A stretch of DNA of 64,000 bases from the NCBI GenBank assembly GCA_000403295.2, contig KE159609.1, forward strand, positions 252,142 to 316,141, in the 5' to 3' direction. Under the pieces are notes generated by a model. That model did not search any database. It saw nothing but the letters and a program-made list of their open reading frames with translations, and was not told the origin of the DNA. A program made the translations under genes and the position numbers. Source of the DNA: Lachnospiraceae bacterium M18-1 (GTDB lineage Bacteria > Bacillota > Clostridia > Lachnospirales > Lachnospiraceae). Shown piece by piece: positions 2,922-64,000 of the stretch. How positions within the stretch are numbered: position 1 is the stretch's first letter; each line of letters begins with the position of its first letter.

Positions 2922-3299
2922 ATGTGTAAAAAAACAAAAAAGCTTCGTTTCAAATGGGAGTTTGGAGATGAAATGGTCTCGCTGCATGTCAATCAATATG
3001 CTTATGGCGGGCGGCTGCACATCGGTATGATCAATTACGGAGAAGATGGTCCGGAACCCTTTGCAGATATGACGGTCAACCTACAGGCCTATGATCTGGA
3101 GGATAACGAAGCATTTATTAACGGAGATATCAGCAAAGACCTGTTAAGGTTTATCAGGGAGAACAAGCTGGGAAAGGTGATGCCATATACCGTGAAATCT
3201 GGATACGGCAGATATGCGGCGGTGGCATTTGATCTGGAAAAGCTGGCGGAATACGATCCTACAGGGGTTGCGTCATTTAAGGAAAACTGTGGGTTATAA
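2922..3299 (+). CDS. DUF4313-like hypothetical protein
   Basis: A 125-residue protein starting at ATG 2922 after a good AAGGAGG. It has alternating beta-strand pattern and a conserved-looking L-H-V-N-Q-Y-A-Y-G-G-R-L-H-I-G-M block near residues 25-40, which is what I recall from DUF4313 proteins of conjugative elements. No enzyme motif, signal peptide or membrane segment. The preceding 71 bases carry a short GC-rich stretch between two T-poor segments, but no clear terminator. Function unknown. Confidence 0.55.
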   Translation: MCKKTKKLRFKWEFGDEMVSLHVNQYAYGGRLHIGMINYGEDGPEPFADMTVNLQAYDLEDNEAFINGDISKDLLRFIRENKLGKVMPYTVKSGYGRYAAVAFDLEKLAEYDPTGVASFKENCGL

Positions 3300-3372
3300 G
3301 GAAAACAGCAATGAGAAGAAGCGGGGGACAGCGTGCTGTTCCCCGCAAATTTGAAAAAGGAAAGGAGGCAGC

Positions 3373-4431
3373 ATGGAAATATTTCATATGAGCGATGTTG
3401 TTTCGTTGCTGGGAATCCCGATGCCGCCGTCTGGAAGAAGCTCCTATTATGTGCAGTGTCCCTGCTGTGACGAAAACCCACGGAAAAAGCATTTGAACAT
3501 CAATTTGAAAAAAGAAGTGTATCGCTGTCCGCGGTGCGGAATATATGGTGGTATATTTGATCTGTATTCCTTATATACCGGAGTTCCGCGTGACAAAGTG
3601 CGAAAAGCTCTGGTTGAGAAACTGGGAATGCCTGATCACCGGCCTAAACCCCAAAAGAGGATACAGCCGCAGGCAAAGCCTGAATGCCCAATAACGGATG
3701 TTGATACCCGTCATGCCACATACAGTGCGCTACTTGATAAGCTGACGCTGGCGGCAGACCATAAAGAGAACCTGCTTGGCAGAGGGCTGACGGAGGATGA
3801 TATTATTCGGCTTGGATATAGAACAACACCTGTGGTCGGTATGACAGCGATTGCCGATAAACTTCAATCTGAAGGGATGTACTTAGCTGGGGTTCCTGGT
3901 TTTTATAGGAATGAAAGCGGTACATGGACTTTTATTCATGAAGAGCGCGGTATCTTAATTCCAATGAGGGATCGGCAAGGAAGGATTCAGGGACTTCAGA
4001 TACGCAGAGATAAAGTGAAAAAGAGAAAATTTCGCTGGGTATCCAGTACGGAGCGACCGGATGGTTGCCCTGCAGAAGGGTGGACACATCTTGCAGGCCC
4101 GGTTAGGCCTATGCTGGTGCTGACAGAAGGTCCTATGAAAGCTGACGTGATTCATGCACTGACTGGTCTGACAGTGCTGGCGGTTCCTGGTGTTAATTCT
4201 CTGACACAGCTTGAAACAACCCTTAGCGATTTACGTGCAGAAGGGGTTGCAGAGATTAAGACTGCTTTTGATATGGATTTTGCGACCAACTACCATGTAC
4301 AAAACGGTTACAACAATCTTCTCAGTCTTCTTGGCAATATGGGATTTCAGTTCGGTACTTACCTGTGGGATCCACGCTATAAGGGACTGGATGATTATAT
4401 CTGGGAATATTGTTTTCAAAAGAGGCATTAA
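3373..4431 (+). CDS. CHC2 zinc-finger primase-like protein with Toprim-like domain
   Basis: Likely primes DNA synthesis of the mobile element. The N-terminal 65 residues hold a zinc-ribbon (C-P-C-C near residue 25 and C-P-R-C-G near residue 50) typical of CHC2-type primase fingers. The C-terminal half includes V-L-T-E-G-P-M-K-A-D, the acidic E-G-x-x-K-A-D motif of Toprim/DUF3854-type domains, followed by V-P-G-V-N and a D-M-D that could complete the metal site. The start is ATG 3373 with AAAGGAGG eight bases upstream. At 352 residues it is shorter than chromosomal DnaG and lacks its helicase-binding domain, as phage and plasmid primases do. Confidence 0.75.
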   Translation: MEIFHMSDVVSLLGIPMPPSGRSSYYVQCPCCDENPRKKHLNINLKKEVYRCPRCGIYGGIFDLYSLYTGVPRDKVRKALVEKLGMPDHRPKPQKRIQPQAKPECPITDVDTRHATYSALLDKLTLAADHKENLLGRGLTEDDIIRLGYRTTPVVGMTAIADKLQSEGMYLAGVPGFYRNESGTWTFIHEERGILIPMRDRQGRIQGLQIRRDKVKKRKFRWVSSTERPDGCPAEGWTHLAGPVRPMLVLTEGPMKADVIHALTGLTVLAVPGVNSLTQLETTLSDLRAEGVAEIKTAFDMDFATNYHVQNGYNNLLSLLGNMGFQFGTYLWDPRYKGLDDYIWEYCFQKRH

Positions 4432-45520: not shown

Positions 45521-48500
45521 ATGGCAATGATTAATGAAATCCGTGGGCTTGCGGATTTTAAGGCAAAGGAAATCACCAGTTCCCCGCGGGACTGGATGAA
45601 ATATCTGGATACGGCGGCGAAGCTGTACCGCTATTCGTTTTCCGATACGCTCCTGATCCATGCGCAGCGCCCGGATGCGACGGCCTGTGCGTCGCTGGAG
45701 CTGTGGAATGAAAAGATGAACCGGTGGGTAAACCGTGGGGCGAAGGGGATCGCACTGATTGACGATACCGGGCCGAGACGGAGATTACGGTATGTATTTG
45801 ACATATCCGACACGCATCTGGGGAGGGGCGGCAGGACGCCGAACCTCTGGCGGATGGAGGACGTACAGAAAGAAGCGGTGCTTGACCATCTGGCGGATGC
45901 TTATGGGTTATCGGAGAGCGACGCTTCCAGTCTGCCCGCCGCACTGTCCGCAATCGCTTACCAGATGACGGAAGAAAACCTGGAAGAAGCAATGGACGGG
46001 CTTTTATATGAAATGGAAGGGACATTTCTGGAGGGGCTGGATGCGGATACCATCCGGGTAGAGTTTCGGAGGCTCTTGATGAACAGCGCATTTTATGCAT
46101 TGTCTGTCCGTTGCGGGGCTGACCCGATGGAATTCCTGGAGGAAGAAGATTTTTCCGGGATTACCGATTACAATGCTCTGTCTGTGCTGACGTTTCTTGG
46201 GAACGCCACGAGCCAGCTTGTGGAGCCGGTGCTTGTGGATATTGGGCGGACGGTGCGCAGGATTTTAATAGAAGAATCCCAGAAAGCGGTTGCAAAAGAA
46301 ACGGATATCGGTTATAATAAATTTAACACTTTAAAGCGCGAAAGCGAAGAAAGAGAAGGAGGAAATGAAAATGGAGCTGACTTACCACCGCAAAGGGGAC
46401 TACCTGTTTCCGAACCTGACCATAGAGGAACCGGAAGTGACAATCGGGAAATACGGGATGCTGCGCCGGACCTATCTGAAGGAGAACCGGAAGGGCTGGT
46501 ATCAGAGCATGATGCTGACAGGGAAACTGGACAGCCATCTGCTGGAGATCGAGAAAGCGGCTACGGAGAGAATGGAAGTATTGATGAAAGGGCTGCTTCA
46601 GAAATACCCGGCCCCGGACAAGGAGAAAGACCAGATGGCGTGGGCGGCGCATATGAATGGGTTGACGGCAATGGCGGAAGAGAGCATCTTGAAGGAATTG
46701 GTGTACAGTTAAATGAAGAAACAACAGAACAGGATTTGAGTGAAGCAGAGGAAGAGACAGCCTCTGCTTTATCTTTGCCCGATCTGCCGACGGTGGAGCA
46801 GCAGAAACGTGGGATTGAGGAACGGATGCAGGCGCTGTATGCCGGGGAGATTGCGATCCCTGCGGATGTGGTGGATGAGGTGCTGCGGGGCGGCGGCAAC
46901 AGGAATGGGAGCCAGCTACGCATCATTTATAATTTTATGATCGACCAGACGCCGGAAGAATACACGGAGTTTGTCCGCAGGGAATACGGCAGGGGCGGGA
47001 TCGGCCTGACCATCCGTGGAACGGAATACTCTGTCTGGTATGACGAGCTGGGGATGCAGATTGCAGTCGGACATACGGTGACAGACCGGATTCTGGATAA
47101 GGCTTTCCTGTCATGGGAGGATGTGAGCGGGCGTATCCACCAGTTATTAAAACAGGGAGAGTATGCGCCGCAGGTCGTACTGGATGCCGCAAGGGAGAAC
47201 GCACTGGAAGAACATGCGAACGCTTTGGCGTTTATGGAGCATGATATGGAGGATGGCGTTGCGGAGCTTGTATTTGAAGATAGGTCAGTTTTCCGGGGCG
47301 GCTTTCCGGAGACAGTGGAAAGATTAAAGGGGCTGATCGCACAGCCGGAATACCTGTCAGAATTGTTGGAGCGTCTGGAAGGACTGAACGAAGCATATGA
47401 GGAAGATCCGTCAATCATGCGGTTTAAATATTATAACCCGACGAAAGTATTGGAGCAGTTTCAAAAGTTTGCGAAGGAAGCCGTGCCATTTCAGGCGAGG
47501 GAAGGATTTGCATGGGAAGAACATCCGGTATTTATTACGGAAGATGAGATTGATGCGTTTTTGCAGGGCGGCGGCGCATATTCTGACGGGCGGCTGTCTA
47601 CTTATGCATTTTTTATTCAGGACAGGAGCGATAAAGAAAAAACGGATTTCATAAAGAACAGCTATGGAATCGGCGGGTGCAGCCATGCGCTGTCCGGCGC
47701 TGACAATTCCCATGCGGATTACAGTGGGAAAGGGCTGAAGCTGGCAAGGGGAAGCTATGGAAGCCCGGATACGGAAGTCCTGCTGAAATGGCCGAAGGTG
47801 GCAAAACGTGTAGCGTTTCTAATTCAGAATGACAATTATTTAAAACCGTCTGATTATTCCCGTATGCCTGATTATGAGCGGGAAGTCATGGCAGGCTGGG
47901 TGGTTCATTTTTATCACCATCTCCCGAACCATATCATGCGCCCATGGGAAGGGAATCCGGATATGTTTACCCATCGGGATGATGTGGTGAGCCTGCTCCG
48001 TAATCCGGATGGGCAGGAAGGTCTGCTGCGGCATATGGATGAAGCAATCGCTGAACTTCCGCTGGATTTTGAGGATTACGAAGAAAGAGTACAGATCCTT
48101 ACGGATCTGCATGGATATGTGGAGGGGACATACACAATCTTCCCGAAAAAGAAAAAGGAAGAAATCCGGATTGAGAATGGCGGGCAGCTTTCGATTTTTG
48201 ATTTTATGAAAACTTCTGCGGCAGAGACAGAAACTCAGGCTAAGGAAAGTGATAAAGACATACCAGAATCACAAAAACTATACAGCCGTAATGTTGGAGA
48301 ATTTGTTTATCTTTATGATGATGCTTTGTGTATAGTGGAACGAACAGACGACCAAAATGTGTATTTATTGGATACAGAGCGGCGTAGTATTAGAGAAAGG
48401 ATAGTATCACAAAAAGAGTATGATGAAATGCTTGCGGAAACGCCGCTCAATAACCATCTTCGGGCGGGAAATCCTCCATTGCAAAAAGATTCCCGGTGCA

Positions 48501-51500
48501 TTTATAAGGAGTGTCTCTATACAGCGTTTTCCATTTTCCGTGAAAGTAAAGAATATGAACTGATTCATTCAGGGGAAATGGGAGATGAAACAGGTCTTGC
48601 GGTTATCCAGAGGAAATTGGATCGTCTAATGGCGAAGAATCGAGAAAACGCTCCAGTTATGGCGGAAGCTTATGATAATTGGGAGAACTTCAGGAACTGG
48701 ATGGCAGAGGATATATTTCAGTGGACATACAATGATTTTAATGTGATCAGGAAGGACAGTGTATTCCTGCATAGGCTTGACTCGAAACTACCAGAGTGGG
48801 CAAAAGGCATGGTAATAGAGGCAGAATTTCAGAAGATTATGACGGATTCTCCGAAAGCACAAGAAACGGTAAAAGGTACTGCGCTTATATTTGAATATCA
48901 TGGTTTTCATTTTGAAGCTGCAGGATATTTGCCGGCGGGTTCAGAGATGCATGAGATAATGGGAAATACGGTATCGAAGAATGAGCTGGGCATGTCAGAC
49001 TATGAAGATGGAAAACTTCCATATTCGTATGGTAGCTTTTATGAAGCAAGCACAGCAAAAACGGCAGATGTTTTCCGATGTATAGAAACAGGAAAATATT
49101 ATCTTCCCGGAGAGCATGAATTGCTTGAATATGTCGGTGAATTTGTTCCGTATTTGCAAAAAGAAACAGAGATTTCAGAACCGGAGGAATCAAAACCAGG
49201 GGAAGAAAAGGCAGAAAAACCAATAGCAGAAGAACCTCCGAAAGAGGAAACAAAGCCGGAAGAACTTACGGAAGAGGAACCGGATCAAACTGTGCCGACA
49301 CAGGATGATACGGAGAGTACAGAACCGGAATCTTTGCAGGAGAAACAGGAAGCAGAGGAAGAATCCCTGATTGAAAACCGACTGTTTCTGGCAATGGAGG
49401 AAGCAGACGTATATCTGGAGGATTTTTCGCCGGAGCAGGTGGATGTCATTTATGAAGCGGCAGAAAAAGGTTTGAACCTTGTGCCGATGCTGAACCCGGA
49501 GTTTTCGCCGGAGCAGATGCAGCTGATCGCTGACGTGATAGAGCGCATGGCGGCGAATGAGCAGGCGGTGTTTGGGAATGAGATCAATCCGATCACAAAC
49601 CATGTAATGAATCCGGAAGAAATCAACAACATCCGGAAAGAACGACGGCTTCCCTTAGAGCCTGCTCAGACAGATGGATTTGGCGGGATTGAGCGACCAG
49701 ATAACGTGCAGCCTGTTCCGGGGCGGCAGGCAGGGCAGAGAGATATAGCAGGTGAGCCGATACAGCAGTCAGCCGGACAGGAAAGAATCAATTTCCATAT
49801 CACCGATGATGATTTAGGCGCAGGCGGGCCGAAGCAGAAATTTCGTGCCAACATGGATGCAGTCTTATTATTGAAAGAACTGGAAGCTGAAAACCGCCTT
49901 GCCACACCGGAAGAACAGGAGACTTTATCACGGTTCGTCGGATGGGGCGGAATCCCTGCGGCGTTTGATGAAAAAAATGAAGCATGGGCGGCGGAGTATG
50001 CGGAGCTTAGGCAGGCGCTGACACCAGAGGAATACCGGGAGGCAAGGGCATCAACCCTGAATGCGTTTTACACTTCCCCCACTGTCATCAAGGCAATGTA
50101 TGAAGCGTTGGGGAACATGGGGTTACAGCAGGGCAATGTATTGGAACCGTCCTGCGGGATCGGGAACTTCATGGGGCTTCTCCCGGATACAATGGACGGG
50201 TTGAAGATGTACGGTGTGGAGCTGGACGGCATATCGGGGAAGATTGCGAAGCAGCTCTACCAGAAGAACCATATTTCCGTGCAGGGATTTGAAACGGCAG
50301 AGTACCCGGACAGCTTTTTTGACTGTGTGATTGGAAATGTACCGTTCGGCGCTTATAAGGTAGCGGACCGGAAGTATGACCGCTATAATTTTATGATCCA
50401 TGATTATTTTATAGCGAAATCCCTTGACCTGGTACGTCCGGGCGGCGTAGTTGCGGTGGTGACATCCAGCGGGACGATGGACAAACAGAACCCGAACGTG
50501 CGCCAGTATATCGCCAACCGTGCAGACCTGCTTGGTGCAGTCCGTCTCCCCAACAATGCGTTCCAGAAGAACGCCGGGACAAACGTGGTGGCGGATATTT
50601 TATTTTTCCAAAAGCGTGACCGTGCATCCATAGAGCAGCCGGATTGGGTGGAGCTTGGGACAACGGCGGAGGGATATTCCGTCAATTCCTATTTTGCGGA
50701 GCATCCGGAAATGGTGTTAGGGGAATTTACTACGGAAAGCACACAGTATGGGAAGCAGGAAGTAACGGTGAAGCCTGCCCAGGGGGCAGTCCTCTCCGAA
50801 CAGTTGAAAGAAGCGGTTGGCCATATCCGGGGAACCATTACGGAGATAGAGATAGAAGATTCGGAATTAGAGGAAGTGGATACGTCTATCCTTGCCGATC
50901 CGTCTGTTAAAAATTTCAGTTTTGCCAACGTAGACGGGAAAGTATATTACCGGGAAAATTCCCGGATGAACTTAATGGAGCTTCCGAAAATGACGACGGA
51001 GCGTGTGCTTGGAATGATTGAGCTTCGGAACCTGACGCAGGAGCTTTTGCAGTGCCAGATGGAGGACGGCAGCGATGCGGAAGTAGCCGTGCTGCAGCAG
51101 AAGCTGAATACGCAGTATGACCGCTTTACCGCACAGTATGGACTAATCAGCAGTAACGCCAACCGGAGGGCATTTTCCCAGGACAGCAGCTATTGCCTGT
51201 TAGCGTCTTTGGAATTGGTAGACGAGGAAGGAAACCTGAAACGGAAAGCGGATATTTTTACAAAGCGCACCATCCGGAAGGCAGTGCCGGTGACAAGCGT
51301 GGATACCGCCAGTGAAGCCCTTGCTGTTTCCATCGGGGAGCAGGCAAAGGTGGATGTGCCGTTTATGGCGGAATTGTCTGGAAAGACGGAGGATGAAGTT
51401 ACAGAGGAACTGGCGGGGGTAATCTTTAAGAATCCACTGACAGATCGGTGGGAAGCGTCGGATGAATACTTATCCGGCAATGTCAGGGAGAAGCTGGAGG

Positions 51501-53692
51501 TTGCAAGGCAGTTTGCAGAAAATAATCCGGAATATAGTATCAATGTGCAGGCATTGGAGCGGGTGCAGCCGAAAGACCTAGAGGCATCAGAGATAGAGGT
51601 GCGTCTGGGGGCAACCTGGGTAAAGCCGGAATATATCACGGAGTTTATGGGGGAGCTGTTCCATACGCCGAAGCATCTGCTTGGAAAGCAGATTGATGTA
51701 AAATATGCGAAGGTCAATGGGCAGTGGAATATTTCCGGGAAAAATGCGGATGTTCGTGGAAATTCGCTGGTGACTGCCACTTACGGGACACAGCGGGCGA
51801 ATGCCTACCGTCTGCTGGAGGATGCGCTGAACCTGCGTGACACGAAGATTTTTGATACGGTCGTGGAGGACGGCAAGGAGAAGAGGGTCCTGAATAAAAA
51901 GGAAACCATGATCGCACAGCAGAAGCAGGAGATGATAAAGGAAGCCTATAAGGAGTGGATTTTCCGTGATCTTGACCGGAGGGAGGATTTGTGCCGGACG
52001 TACAATGATCTGTTTAACAGCATCCGTCCCCGTGAGTATGACGGGAGCCATATCCAGTTTACAGGCATGACGCCGGAGATCACGCTGATGCCCCACCAGA
52101 AAAATGCAGTGGCGCATATATTATATGGAAATAATACCTTGCTTGCGCACTGTGTGGGAGCCGGGAAGACGTTTCAGATGATTGCGGCCGGGATGGAGAG
52201 CCGGAGGCTTGGGCTGGCGCAGAAAAATCTTTATGTTGTGCCAAACCATTTGACGGAGCAGTGGGGCAGTGATTTCCTGCGCCTGTATCCGGGCGCAAAT
52301 GTCCTAGTCGCTACCAAAAAGGATTTTGAGCCTGCCAACCGGAAGAAGTTCTGTTCCCGTATCGCAACCGGGGATTACGATGCCGTAATCATTGGGCACA
52401 GCCAGTTTGAGCGCATTCCCCTTTCCAGGGAACGGCAGATAGCGGCCATTGAGCGGCAGATGCATGACATTACAACGGCGATAGCAGAGCTGGCGGAAGA
52501 AGAGGGGACACGTTACACCATCAAACAGATGGAAAAGACAAGGAAATCGCTGCAGGCACGGCTTGACAAGCTGAACGACCAGAGCCGGAAAGACGATGTG
52601 GTGACGTTTGAGCAGTTGGGCGTGGACAGGCTGTTTGTAGACGAGAGCCATTTTTATAAAAATATGTTCCTATACACAAAAATGCGTAACGTAGCCGGGA
52701 TTTCCCAGACTGACGCACAGAAAAGTTCGGATATGTTTATGAAGTGCCAGTATCTGGACGAGCTGACCGGAGGGAAAGGGGTCACTTTTGCAACGGGTAC
52801 GCCCGTGTCAAATAGTATGGTAGAATTATATACCATTATGCGTTATCTACAGTATGATACCCTCCAGAAGCTGGGTCTGGGGCATTTCGATTCCTGGGCG
52901 GCGGCGTTTGGTGAAACTGTCACAAGCATAGAATTAAGTCCTGAAGGCACAGGATACCGAGCAAAAACAAGGTTCGCCCGGTTTTTTAACCTCCCGGAGT
53001 TGATCGCATTATTTAAGGAGAGCGCCGACATCCAGACGGCGGATATGTTGGATCTCCCAGTTCCCGAAGCGGAATATATCAATGAAGTGCTGAAACCGAG
53101 CGGAGAGCAGCAGGATTTAGTCAGCTCTTTTGCAGAGCGGGCGGAGATCGTCCGTGCCGGGAATGTAGACCCGTCACGGGATAATATGTTGAAGATTACG
53201 AACGACGGCAGAAAGTGCGCCCTTGACCAGCGATTGATCAACGATATGCTTCCGGATGCGGAGGAAAGCAAGGTCAACCGCTGTGTAAATAATGCGTTTG
53301 ATATCTGGAAAAGGACTTCTGCAGATAAGGGGACACAATTAATTTTTTGCGACCTGTCTACGCCGAAGAATGACGGCACATTCAATGTCTATGACGATGT
53401 GCGGGAAAAATTGGTGGCAAAGGGAATCCCCAGGGAGGAAGTGGCGTTTATCCATGAAGCAGGGACGGAAACGAAGAAAGCGGAATTATTTTCAAAGGTG
53501 CGCTCCGGGCAGGTGCGTATCCTGCTTGGCTCTACGCCGAAGTTGGGTGCCGGGACAAATATCCAGGACAGGCTTGTTGCCTTACACCACCTTGATGCGC
53601 CTTGGAAACCTGCCGATGTAGGACGGATTTTGCGGACATTCAAAATAAAAAAGAATGTGGAGGTAACAGACAATGGCAAAATCATTATTTGA
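45521..53692 (+). CDS. Giant helicase-methylase (LtrC/SNF2-type), 3' truncated by element B
   Basis: Multidomain DNA-processing protein of element A, 2723 codons in the open frame but only about 2700 are its own. Visible in order: an N-terminal ArdC-like region (about 1-130), a low-complexity linker (residues 275-400) that overlaps a tnpV-like gene, further DUF domains, a methylase domain ([10 protein letters not shown] and the N-P-P-like motif G-N-V-P-F-G-A, about residues 1545-1615) and an SF2 helicase (G-A-G-K-T near 52150, V-D-E-S-H near 52635). It is cut near 53621 within helicase motif VI: D-V is followed by G-R-I-L-R-T-F without the Q-R-E part. The end of the frame to 53692 is element B sequence. 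Helicase function is probably lost. Confidence 0.85.
46365..46712 (+). CDS. TnpV-like gene embedded in the helicase gene (+1 frame)
   Basis: A 115-residue product (or 113 from ATG 46371) read in the +1 frame inside the helicase gene. It has AAGGAGG at 46354-46360, 4 to 10 bases before the candidate ATGs. The product ([12 protein letters not shown] ... [13 protein letters not shown] ... [12 protein letters not shown]) aligns along its length with the TnpV at 53673. The helicase frame over the same bases is a Gly/Glu/Asp/Arg-rich linker without domain character. So this is probably a true overlapping gene, and the linker is the overprinted frame. TnpV function is unknown. Confidence 0.7.
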
Positions 53693-54047
53693 GGAACTGG
53701 GCGGCAAATACGAAAGGCAAGGGGATTATTTGATACCGTGCTTAACTGTACCCGCCGAAGAAGAACAGGCAATAGGCATCTGGGGGCAACGGCATTTAGA
53801 TTATCTAAAACAGTACCGTAAAGTTACATACACCAATCTTCTTACAAGCGGCAGGCTAAACGCCTACCTTGCCGACATCAACAGACAGGCACAGGAACGC
53901 TTTGAAAGGCTCATAGAGGGTATGAAACAGGCACAGGGCATAACGGAACAGCTAAAGGCAGAAAACGCCTTAGAATGGACAGGATGCCTCAATAACATAA
54001 GGGCTTGTGCGAGGGAGATTGTGGAAAAGGAAATTATTTTTGCATAA
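53673..54047 (+). CDS. tnpV: TnpV-family transposon protein
   Basis: A 124-residue basic protein, start ATG 53673 with GGAGG at 53658-53662. It has the family pattern [25 protein letters not shown] and [12 protein letters not shown], ending I-V-E-K-E-I-I-F-A. TnpV was named from Tn4451/Tn4453 and its role is unknown. It is about 50 bases from the left junction of element B and is followed by a terminator, so it is a separate transcript from tet(O). Confidence 0.88.
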
Positions 54048-54060
54048 ACAGATGATTAGT

Positions 54061-54086
54061 GGCAGGGGGAAATCCTGCCGCTTTTT
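54061..54086 (+). terminator. Rho-independent terminator behind tnpV
   Basis: GGCAGG/CCTGCC stem with a 7-base loop, extended by flanking G-C pairs, then CTTTTT. It isolates tnpV from tet(O). Confidence 0.85.
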
Positions 54087-54104
54087 CTGCTTTAGTTTGT
54101 CAGC

Positions 54105-54133
54105 TTGACAAATAAAGGGTTAAGGAATATAAT
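54105..54133 (+). promoter_or_regulatory. Consensus sigma-A promoter of tet(O)
   Basis: TTGACA at 54105-54110 and TATAAT at 54128-54133 with a 17-base spacer: a perfect match to both boxes. Confidence 0.93.
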
Positions 54134-54413
54134 TAGATTCAGTATTATACAAGGAGTTAATAAATATGCGGCAAGGTATTCTTAAATAAACTGTCAATTT
54201 GATAGTGGGAACAAAAAGTAGCAGTCCCGTTTCACTTTTAATATGGGGCTTAGTTTTTTGTACCCAGTTTAAGAATACTTTTATCATGTAATTTTATATG
54301 CCCGAAAACATATAAGTGTTTTGGGGCTATTGGAGTTATTTACCCAGTGATAGGAGTATTTATCACTGGGTATTTTTATGCCCTTTTTTGGGTGTTGATA
54401 GGAGGAAAATCAC
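54134..54413 (+). promoter_or_regulatory. tet(O) attenuator leader
   Basis: 280-base leader. A 7-codon peptide M-R-Q-G-I-L-K (54166-54189) follows AAGGAG. Its 3' part, GTATTCTTAAA plus AAACTG, can pair with CAGTTTAAGAATAC at 54265-54278. A second hairpin, TACCCAGTGATA/TATCACTGGGTA (54341-54372), is followed by TTTTTATG and is a terminator. This is the layout of tet(M)/tet(O) leaders, in which ribosome stalling by tetracycline favours read-through. Confidence 0.85.
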
Positions 54414-56333
54414 ATGAAAATAATTAACTTAGGCATTCTGGCTCACGTTGACGCAGGAAAGACAACATTAACGGAAAGTTTATTGTATACCAGTGGTGCA
54501 ATTGCAGAACTAGGGAGCGTAGATGAAGGCACAACAAGGACAGATACAATGAATTTGGAGCGTCAAAGGGGAATCACTATCCAGACAGCAGTGACATCTT
54601 TTCAGTGGGAGGATGTAAAAGTCAACATTATAGATACGCCAGGCCATATGGATTTTTTGGCGGAAGTATACCGTTCTTTATCCGTATTAGACGGAGCAGT
54701 ATTATTAGTTTCTGCAAAGGATGGCATACAGGCACAGACCCGTATACTGTTTCATGCACTACAGATAATGAAGATTCCGACAATTTTTTTCATCAATAAA
54801 ATTGACCAAGAGGGGATTGATTTGCCAATGGTATATCGGGAAATGAAAGCAAAGCTTTCTTCGGAAATTATAGTGAAGCAAAAGGTTGGGCAGCATCCCC
54901 ATATAAATGTAACGGACAATGACGATATGGAACAGTGGGATGCGGTAATTATGGGAAACGATGAACTATTAGAGAAATATATGTCAGGGAAACCGTTTAA
55001 AATGTCAGAACTGGAACAGGAAGAAAACAGGAGATTCCAAAACGGAACGTTATTTCCCGTTTATCACGGAAGCGCTAAAAACAATCTGGGGATTCGGCAG
55101 CTTATAGAAGTAATTGCCAGTAAATTTTATTCATCAACGCCTGAAGGTCAATCTGAACTATGCGGGCAGGTTTTTAAGATTGAATATTCAGAGAAAAGGC
55201 GGCGTTTTGTTTATGTGCGTATATATAGCGGAACATTGCATTTGAGGGATGTTATTAGAATATCTGAAAAAGAGAAAATAAAAATCACAGAGATGTGTGT
55301 TCCGACAAACGGTGAATTATATTCATCCGATACAGCCTGCTCTGGTGATATTGTAATTTTACCAAATGATGTTTTGCAGCTAAACAGTATTTTGGGGAAC
55401 GAAATACTGTTGCCGCAGAGAAAATTTATTGAAAATCCTCTCCCTATGCTCCAAACAACGATTGCAGTAAAGAAATCTGAACAGCGGGAAATATTGCTTG
55501 GGGCACTTACAGAAATTTCAGATGGCGACCCTCTTTTAAAATATTATGTGGATACTACAACGCATGAGATTATACTTTCTTTTTTGGGGAATGTGCAGAT
55601 GGAAGTCATTTGTGCCATCCTTGAGGAAAAATATCATGTGGAGGCAGAAATAAAAGAGCCTACTGTTATATATATGGAAAGACCGCTTAGAAAAGCAGAA
55701 TATACCATCCACATAGAAGTCCCGCCAAATCCTTTCTGGGCTTCTGTCGGGTTGTCCATAGAGCCGCTCCCTATTGGAAGCGGAGTGCAGTATGAAAGCA
55801 GAGTTTCACTTGGATATTTAAATCAATCGTTCCAAAATGCGGTTATGGAGGGGGTTCTTTATGGCTGCGAGCAGGGGCTGTATGGATGGAAAGTGACAGA
55901 CTGTAAAATCTGTTTTGAATATGGATTGTATTATAGTCCTGTAAGTACCCCCGCAGACTTTCGGCTGCTTTCCCCTATCGTATTGGAGCAGGCTTTAAAA
56001 AAAGCAGGGACAGAACTATTAGAGCCATATCTCCACTTTGAAATTTATGCACCGCAGGAATATCTCTCACGGGCGTATCATGATGCTCCAAGGTATTGTG
56101 CAGATATTGTAAGTACTCAGATAAAGAATGACGAGGTCATTCTGAAAGGAGAAATCCCTGCTAGATGTATTCAAGAATACAGGAACGATTTAACTTATTT
56201 CACAAATGGGCAGGGAGTCTGCTTGACAGAGTTAAAAGGATACCAGCCAGCTATTGGTAAATTTATTTGCCAACCCCGCCGCCCGAATAGCCGTATAGAT
56301 AAGGTTCGGCATATGTTCCACAAGTTAGCTTAA
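54414..56333 (+). CDS. tet(O): Tetracycline resistance ribosomal protection protein Tet(O)
   Basis: GTPase related to EF-G that removes tetracycline from the ribosome. The 639 residues match Tet(O) in length and sequence as I recall it, including the start [17 protein letters not shown] and [24 protein letters not shown], and the end [11 protein letters not shown]. Tet(W) differs at many of these positions (for example E-P-G-S-V-E-K-G). The start is ATG 54414 with AGGAGG. Lower GC and different codon use from the neighbours show separate acquisition. Confidence 0.97.
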
Positions 56334-63017: not shown

Positions 63018-64000
63018 TTAGATAGCATAACTCTTTACGTCGGCTCCTATCTGTCTGAAATAGGAGATACTTTCAGTAGGCTTGTCGCCTGTATCAACTC
63101 TGCCGACAAAGCTATAAAAGATTTCGATTTTGCGGGTGTTCGTTTCCTTATCCAGTTCGTGAATAAGAATACGGTCAATAAATTCATGGACGTTTTCGTA
63201 GGTCAGTTCTTCAATCGCTGTGTATCTGCGTACCAGTGCGACAAACCTTTTTACGTCCGCGCTGCGCTCGGTGGCGTTGTCGATTTCCTGTGACAGCTCC
63301 GCAATCCTCCGGGTCAGCGTCTTTTTTTCTTCATCATAGCCGGAAGTCAGAAAAGCAAATTGTTCATCTGAAAGTTTCCCTAAAGCGTTGTCCTCGTAGA
63401 GCTTGCGGAATAAGATGTTCAGCTCGTTAATACGGTTCTGCGCCTTGTCAAGTTCTTTCCGCTGCTGTGTCAGCGTCTTTTGTACTGCCTTTGCGCTGCA
63501 CTCGTTGGCGGTTTCGATAAACTCCTGTTCATGCTCTTTCACATAAGACGTTACTCGCTGCAAGTCTGCAAGGACAAGTTCTTTCAATACGCTTTTGCGG
63601 ATATAATGCGTAGTGCAGAGCATATCATTTCTTGCCCGGTTGCGGTAGTTGCCGCAAGTGTAGGCGTGTTTCCGTTCAAGCGTCCCGGCTCCGCGTACTG
63701 CATACATTTTGTAGCCGCAGTCCCCACAAAAGAGCAGCCCGGAAAACAGGTCAATTTCATCAACCTTTGTCGGGCGTTGCCGGGTGGCAATCCGCTTCTG
63801 TGCAAGTTCAAAGGTTTCTTCATCAATCAAAGGTTCGTGAGTGTTGGGGAAGAAATACCTTTTTTCCTCCGGGTTCTTTTTCGTCTTTTTCGACTTATAA
63901 GATACCTTGTAGGTTTTCCCGGTTATGGTATGCCCTAAATACTCTTTCCTTGTCAGAATGTCGTACAGTGTCTTATCCGGCCAGTTGTACCATGCGTTGA
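63018..64000 (-). CDS. Large serine recombinase of element C (partial, 5' end beyond the window)
   Basis: The last 327 residues of a TndX/TnpX-type large serine recombinase. The frame enters at the window edge with W-Y-N-W-P-D-K-T-L-Y-D-I-L-T-R-K-E-Y-L-G-H-T, the recombinase domain, continues with a zinc ribbon (F-C-G-D-C-G-Y-K-M ... Y-T-C-G-N-Y), a coiled coil (about 63250-63500) and a DUF4368-type tail (F-I-D-R-I-L-I-H-E-L-D ... I-E-I-F-Y-S-F-V-G). The catalytic N-terminus is not in the window. It probably carried out the insertion of element C. Confidence 0.9.
   Translation of the reverse strand, partial: NAWYNWPDKTLYDILTRKEYLGHTITGKTYKVSYKSKKTKKNPEEKRYFFPNTHEPLIDEETFELAQKRIATRQRPTKVDEIDLFSGLLFCGDCGYKMYAVRGAGTLERKHAYTCGNYRNRARNDMLCTTHYIRKSVLKELVLADLQRVTSYVKEHEQEFIETANECSAKAVQKTLTQQRKELDKAQNRINELNILFRKLYEDNALGKLSDEQFAFLTSGYDEEKKTLTRRIAELSQEIDNATERSADVKRFVALVRRYTAIEELTYENVHEFIDRILIHELDKETNTRKIEIFYSFVGRVDTGDKPTESISYFRQIGADVKSYAI

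Follow-up and report, generated by a model that had tools for sequence, protein, structure and literature searches.

A probable tnpV gene nested in another frame of a giant helicase gene

Can the bases that encode the linker of a giant helicase also encode, in another frame of the same strand, a second complete protein? Long nested genes of bacteria tend to be isolated examples for which proof is difficult. The question is raised by the window analysed here (64,000 nucleotides of contig KE159609.1 of Lachnospiraceae bacterium M18-1), in which the first-pass annotation had seen a TnpV-like gene at 46365..46712, hidden in the +1 frame of a helicase gene. Since a curated protein family lies out of frame in nearly all the helicases sampled, the overlap can be tested by statistics and not on one strain.

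The helicase gene and its nested frame

45521..53692, + strand: giant helicase ORF of 2,723 codons, its 3' part broken at about 53,630
45521..46360, + strand: helicase N-terminal domain, source of the search profile A1
46356..46362, + strand: internal Shine-Dalgarno sequence AAGGAGG of nested tnpV, 8 nt ahead of the ATG
46370..46711, + strand: helicase linker codons overlapping tnpV, with no stop, no Cys and no sequence constraint detected among relatives
46371..46712, + strand: probable nested tnpV gene, 113 amino acids plus stop (PF14198 match, start taken from relatives, purifying selection)

The helicase ORF encodes, in this order, an ArdC-like N domain, a linker, an Eco57I-type methyltransferase and an SNF2 helicase, with Pfam matches to PF07669 (adenine methyltransferase; 27.9 bits, cut-off 25.3) and PF00176 (SNF2; 30.3 bits, cut-off 24.9). 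Nothing in Pfam scored above cut-off for the N domain, whose ArdC-like label comes from the RefSeq names of partial relatives (ssDNA-binding), and the helicase-frame reading of the tnpV bases matched no Pfam family. Because a topoisomerase III and a CD1108-family mobile element protein are encoded 5' of the helicase gene, we infer that the region is a conjugative element.

The nested ORF (46365-46712, + strand, 115 codons) is fully contained in the helicase ORF on the same strand, in its +1 frame, codon position 1 of TnpV falling on position 2 of the helicase. It matches the Pfam TnpV family (PF14198) with 113.4 bits (cut-off 27, E 6.7e-33) over profile positions 1-111 of 111; NCBIfam gave no TnpV model match for this ORF. 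With a whole-profile match and 35% identity to the ORF at 53673, the initial view of the nested protein as a full-length relative of the TnpV encoded there holds, and the AAGGAGG attributed to the frame is indeed found at 46356-46362. What has to be amended is the start, which most likely lies at 46371, 6 nt later than 46365 (113 amino acids), because close relatives start there and 8 nt then separate the Shine-Dalgarno sequence from the ATG; the rejected start at 46365 stands just 2 nt from AAGGAGG.

Conservation and taxonomic reach of the overlap

Homologous helicases were sought with profile A1 of the N domain, for which the window sequence was combined with 14 loci that TnpV had led to; TnpV itself was not used in the search, and the make-up of the profile biases the surveys towards close relatives of nested helicases. 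The samples of genome contigs, of the phylum and of relatives partly overlap. Among the genome contigs (the best 80 of 588 A1 matches), 72 of 80 encode a complete TnpV in the +1 frame while the helicase frame runs across it uninterrupted. Three of the remaining eight end too soon, and the five exceptions (L040, L090, L104, L106 and L110), in which the helicase frame either breaks inside the N domain or closes no more than about 120 codons from it, are broken genes. In 398 genomes of the phylum the N domain was matched over at least 240 of 253 positions at 24 places, with nested TnpV in 23 of the 24; the other copy (L187) lies near a contig end, a TnpV match being nevertheless present. The 61 relatives held 23 complete N domains, all in open frames of at least 735 codons and all with the nested frame (23/23), in 21 as a TnpV match just downstream at +1 offset (coordinates compared by hand) and in two as a diverged relative. 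As for viral contigs, 9 of 29 show nested TnpV, 17 are without a complete N domain, two end too soon and one is without TnpV (L114, whose helicase frame stops one codon past the N domain).

Among the helicases examined, every one whose N domain is complete and whose own frame runs open across the linker also has the nested frame. Translating many homologous helicases in the +1 frame, a check suggested at the outset, yielded TnpV or a diverged relative in nearly all, and the frame is not broken in most of the homologues examined. No near match was found in E. coli genomes.

The phylum sample comprised, besides the 24 full-length places, five partial ones, of which L199 has TnpV and L200 to L203 do not. 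Nested TnpV accompanies the partial N-domain match of L199 and also that of L243. It was found neither in L201 to L203, long ORFs with a short ArdC-like match alone, nor in L200, a distant helicase with a partial N-domain match and a short linker. The idea that L200 hides an unrecognised nested TnpV was dropped, as its +1 ORF is unlike TnpV. A part of the helicase family at large probably acquired the nested gene, or else lost it.

Fourteen plasmid records were also examined (5 of 19, 6 of 40 listed and 3 of 7; chosen, not exhaustive), and 11 of them have the nested arrangement: Virgibacillus (L140), Cohnella (L141), Ruminococcus albus (L206), Enterococcus (L240), Listeria seeligeri and L. welshimeri (L205, L207), Streptococcus agalactiae (L204), Anaerococcus (L239), Aerococcus (L238, with a helicase frame closing soon after) and Monoglobus (L208 and L142, the latter having its helicase N domain cut by a stop). 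Stand-alone TnpV occurs in two of the other three (L143, L144) and an N-domain protein without TnpV in the third (L209). Nested tnpV is present in Clostridia and Bacilli. Seven of nine diverged nested relatives pass the 27-bit Pfam TnpV cut-off (L140, L141, L205, L206, L207, L208 and L240), those of Anaerococcus L239 (24.9 bits) and Streptococcus L204 (15.9 bits) falling below it. In hhalign profile comparisons with TnpV, the Listeria-Enterococcus-Virgibacillus-Ruminococcus group reached E 7e-24 and the Streptococcus-Anaerococcus group E 2.1e-7 (probability 94%). A longer diverged nested version, of 136-144 amino acids in the five aligned, was seen in L204, L210, L198, L238, L239, L241 and L242; it is not listed in the annotation of L204, L238 and L239, the three annotated records.

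Annotation is apt to retain a single gene of the pair. In the 11 plasmid records with the arrangement both full genes are listed in none (the PLSDB gene table being incomplete), the helicase only in six, TnpV without a full helicase in three (including L142) and neither in two; the overlap would explain why the annotated records examined retain either tnpV or the helicase. It may also distort helicase annotation, as in L208, for which RefSeq lists TnpV (3294-3626) and a helicase from 5543 only, an open N-domain frame having no listed gene. The overlap had been proposed to be ancient and widely missed, and its persistence in nearly all copies of the three samples agrees with this, but some nested copies do carry their name: among the best 120 of 503 protein-database relatives of the nested protein, some are called TnpV by NCBI, e.g., P0016.

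Start signals, selection and composition in the two frames

The following comparisons draw on 143 nested rows (duplicate loci included, chosen for an open helicase frame), which gave 116 distinct genes for the start signals, 112 complete loci yielding 40 disjoint pairs for the selection test, and 110 unique coding sequences for the recoding trials and for the count of wobble bases that would create a helicase stop. Loci with N domain and TnpV in which the helicase frame is not open (L040, L090, L104, L110 and L120) stand outside the 143.

All but one of the distinct nested genes start with ATG (115/116). A match of at least 5 nt to TAAGGAGGTGA accompanies 111 of the 116, against about 10% of control positions, the former figure being somewhat inflated because the start codon was partly chosen by Shine-Dalgarno length; the match recurs in 31 of the 33 genes of a diverse subset. 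Ribosomes would initiate within the helicase message at AAGGAGG...ATG and release free TnpV. Instead of initiating internally, ribosomes could leave the helicase frame by programmed frameshifting and yield a fusion of N domain and TnpV; compatible with this are seven of 116 genes whose TnpV frame extends open over more than 60 codons ahead of the ATG (maximum 115, in L094). That frame is closed within 15 codons upstream in 85/116, however, and within 5 codons in 23/116, and a fusion would render superfluous a conserved ATG and a Shine-Dalgarno sequence spaced 8 or 9 nt from it in 98/116, so that we consider a frameshift quite unlikely.

The selection test compared the 40 disjoint pairs of relatives, with changes classed by their effect in both frames. 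Within the overlap, TnpV gave a dNN/dNS of 0.20 (0.18-0.23) and the helicase a dNN/dSN of 1.04 (0.90-1.19), while in the flanks the same test returned 0.15 upstream and 0.14 downstream for the helicase and 0.78 and 0.73, respectively, for a pseudo-nested frame. The contrast between 0.20 and 1.04 indicates that the amino acids of TnpV are kept and those of the linker are not. Selection acting only on the helicase frame had been named in advance as an outcome that would speak against a nested gene, and the reverse is seen. It likewise contradicts the notion of the +1 frame as an accidental ORF, or as the functionless remains of a transposon insertion, which might be entertained from the name TnpV, suggestive of a transposon gene, and from the six annotated records listing the helicase alone; with conserved start signals and a distribution over Clostridia and Bacilli also against it, this notion keeps next to no credibility.

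The undetected constraint on the linker (1.04) would also suit a situation in which TnpV alone is real, the helicase halves are separate proteins and the frame between them is open by accident. Yet it is open in the 72/80 contigs (best 80 of 588) and 23/24 phylum copies mentioned above, whereas the equivalent frame is open over the domain in 0/22 stand-alone TnpV genes with no helicase domain nearby. The third frame is open over the TnpV domain in 0/143 nested rows, and when the nested proteins were recoded with their own codon usage the helicase frame stayed open in 304 of 5,500 trials. The open helicase frame over tnpV exceeds chance.

Codon choice in tnpV bears on the same issue. NNY codons end in T in 0 of 1,007 cases where a helicase stop would result and in 1,132 of 2,995 elsewhere, a contrast that arises partly by construction, the set deriving from rows selected for openness. 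A wobble T that would give the helicase a Cys, a count on which the choice of open frames has no bearing, is used in 0/152 nested vs 62/102 stand-alone cases; for Trp the counts are 47/301 vs 42/79, for Tyr 101/413 vs 94/160 and for Phe 54/183 vs 55/81, but for Ser they are 704/1,569 (45%) vs 102/223 (46%) and for Leu 226/377 vs 70/108, and it is this contrast between classes, not the totals, that carries the argument, overall wobble T being 9% in nested and 24% in stand-alone genes and the sequences sharing ancestry. The diverse nested subset gave 0/53 for Cys, 12/92 for Trp and 218/449 for Ser. In this line, the linker has no Cys in 12,979 residues from 112 loci, compared with 170 in 22,400 residues encoded by the 600 nt upstream. 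Because codons for Cys, Trp, Tyr and Phe are avoided and those for Ser and Leu are not, the linker frame seems to be translated, and an accidentally open linker appears very improbable. In the translated linker, the helicase would select for a soluble, Cys-free spacer and not for a sequence, which amounts to a division of labour between the frames, one setting the residues and the other the composition only. Ribosomes translating the helicase would read the tnpV bases as a disordered spacer from the ArdC-like N domain to the rest of the protein.

Altogether, by its complete containment, coding selection and own start signals, tnpV is a nested same-strand overlapping gene, and, as judged from sequence comparisons, 46371-46712 is very probably a real, translated gene within the helicase gene of a conjugative element.

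Origin and role of TnpV

The nested gene has travelled with its host: the distances between nested TnpVs track those between N domains, with r 0.905 over 88 loci, a value reached by 0 of 999 permutations. TnpV can also exist without the helicase, and stand-alone TnpVs are common; of 82 TnpV matches in the 61 relatives, 21 stand just after a full N domain and 61 are without demonstrated nesting. A midpoint-rooted tree with 76 nested and 34 stand-alone TnpVs, which rests on few columns, has some long branches and counts a broken nested locus (L104) among the 34, shows 10 switches between the two labels; well-supported branches require at least 8 of them, and the stand-alone TnpVs fall in several groups among the nested ones. 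Since repeated re-entry at the same place and in the same frame is unlikely, the simpler reading is that stand-alone genes escaped from the helicase linker, and the nested arrangement may be an older state than the TnpV of transposons. Less certainly, the stand-alone TnpV genes of small transposons would be such escaped copies.

The second TnpV of the window, which groups with stand-alone TnpVs in that tree, lies at the broken end of the helicase gene:

53628-56333: probable insertion of a mobilizable element in the helicase gene (11-bp site, then tnpV, then Tet gene)
53673-54047: stand-alone tnpV of the insertion
54414-56333: TetM/TetW/TetO/TetS-family ribosomal protection gene

An exact copy of the published 11-bp snf2 site TTTTGCGGACA occupies 53628-53638, where the helicase sequence is presumably interrupted, judging by known helicase motifs. 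This 11-bp sequence has been reported at snf2-inserted cargoes with tnpV and resistance genes (PMC9815147, available in part), and for Roseburia a tnpV that immediately precedes tet(O) has been described (PMC11913394, available in part). Given the 11-bp site, the helicase break, the neighbouring Tet gene and the Roseburia report, the TnpV at 53673 is most likely part of a later, separate insertion and no duplicate of the nested gene. A one-mismatch copy of the motif at 63593-63603 is possibly the far end of the insertion, two window matches being within chance at one-mismatch tolerance; 10 other loci that were examined lack the motif. Two helicase genes of different organisms (L076, 5979-12051; L079, 5973-11772) share an end point, their last residues being DDVICCEL, and have a stand-alone tnpV domain 188 nt past the helicase end, the 11-bp motif being absent; this end point is perhaps another insertion site in the same helicase gene.

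As to what TnpV does, the protein would, less certainly than it is made, partner the helicase, with its amount tied to the latter through the shared message, as for MobB and MobA in RSF1010. We favour a partner role because of the co-inheritance with the N domain and the precedent of RSF1010 mobB, while rating it at slightly less than an even chance. The alternative is a passenger in the linker, unrelated to the helicase, that serves the element as an Xis-like excision factor or as a DNA-binding regulator. The TnpV of Tn4451, presented as a transposon gene, has a role in excision proposed by likeness to lambda Xis, and the Tn6104 homologue (ORF 1745) is numbered next to a TnpX-like serine recombinase (ORF 1744) (PMC3158075, available in part). 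TnpV lies, too, over or beside a recombinase in three Campylobacter plasmids. Excisionases like lambda Xis have a winged-helix DNA-binding fold. The structure model of TnpV (pLDDT 90) shows a beta hairpin and four helices, for which sequence and fold searches of the PDB found no convincing match, and the tight co-inheritance with the N domain suits a partner better; an Xis-like passenger is possible, though we would not expect it. The best predicted viral fold match of the model is an uncharacterised siphovirus protein (A0A8S5PVI1; TM 0.64, probability 1.00, E 0.12), a possible distant TnpV-like phage protein.

Returning to the partner role, it can be joined with the other lines into one reading, to which we give slightly less than even odds: the linker would be the ancestral home of TnpV, of single origin and Bacillota-wide, TnpV an obligatory, dose-tied partner of the helicase, free copies repeated escapes, and selection one-sided. 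If so, the free copies would include the TnpV of Tn4451-like and snf2-targeting elements, and the nested protein would fix the sequence while the host protein selects for composition only. The overlap also gives a definite starting point for finding out what TnpV does in resistance-bearing conjugative elements.

Several known systems invite comparison. The TnpV family (PF14198), with members in Tn4451- and Tn6104-type elements, is homologous to nested TnpV over the whole profile; there it is a transposon gene, with no overlap mentioned in the part of PMC3158075 available, whereas in the window it lies out of frame in a helicase gene. The SNF2/COG4646 genes of Tn5252- and Tn1549-type ICEs, which join a methylase and an SNF2 helicase of conjugative elements and resemble the window gene by domains, are described as targets of mobilizable elements (PMC7168690, PMC9815147 and PMC12942858, each available in part); the main texts of all three contain no word starting with 'overlap', and no paper on a TnpV-helicase overlap was among the literature matches listed, most subscription papers being outside their coverage. 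A likeness is found in RSF1010, where mobB lies within mobA/repB in another frame, a small mobile-element gene inside a large DNA-processing gene, and MobA, MobB and MobC are essential for mobilization (PMC2200642, available in part); it differs in its proteins and hosts, and is one plasmid as opposed to a helicase family widespread in Bacillota. Similarly, comS of Bacillus subtilis is a small functional gene inside the giant srfAB, in a distinct frame (PMC12915044, available in part), ComS being a small competence protein encoded in a surfactin synthetase gene, whereas TnpV has 113 amino acids and belongs to a family with stand-alone members.
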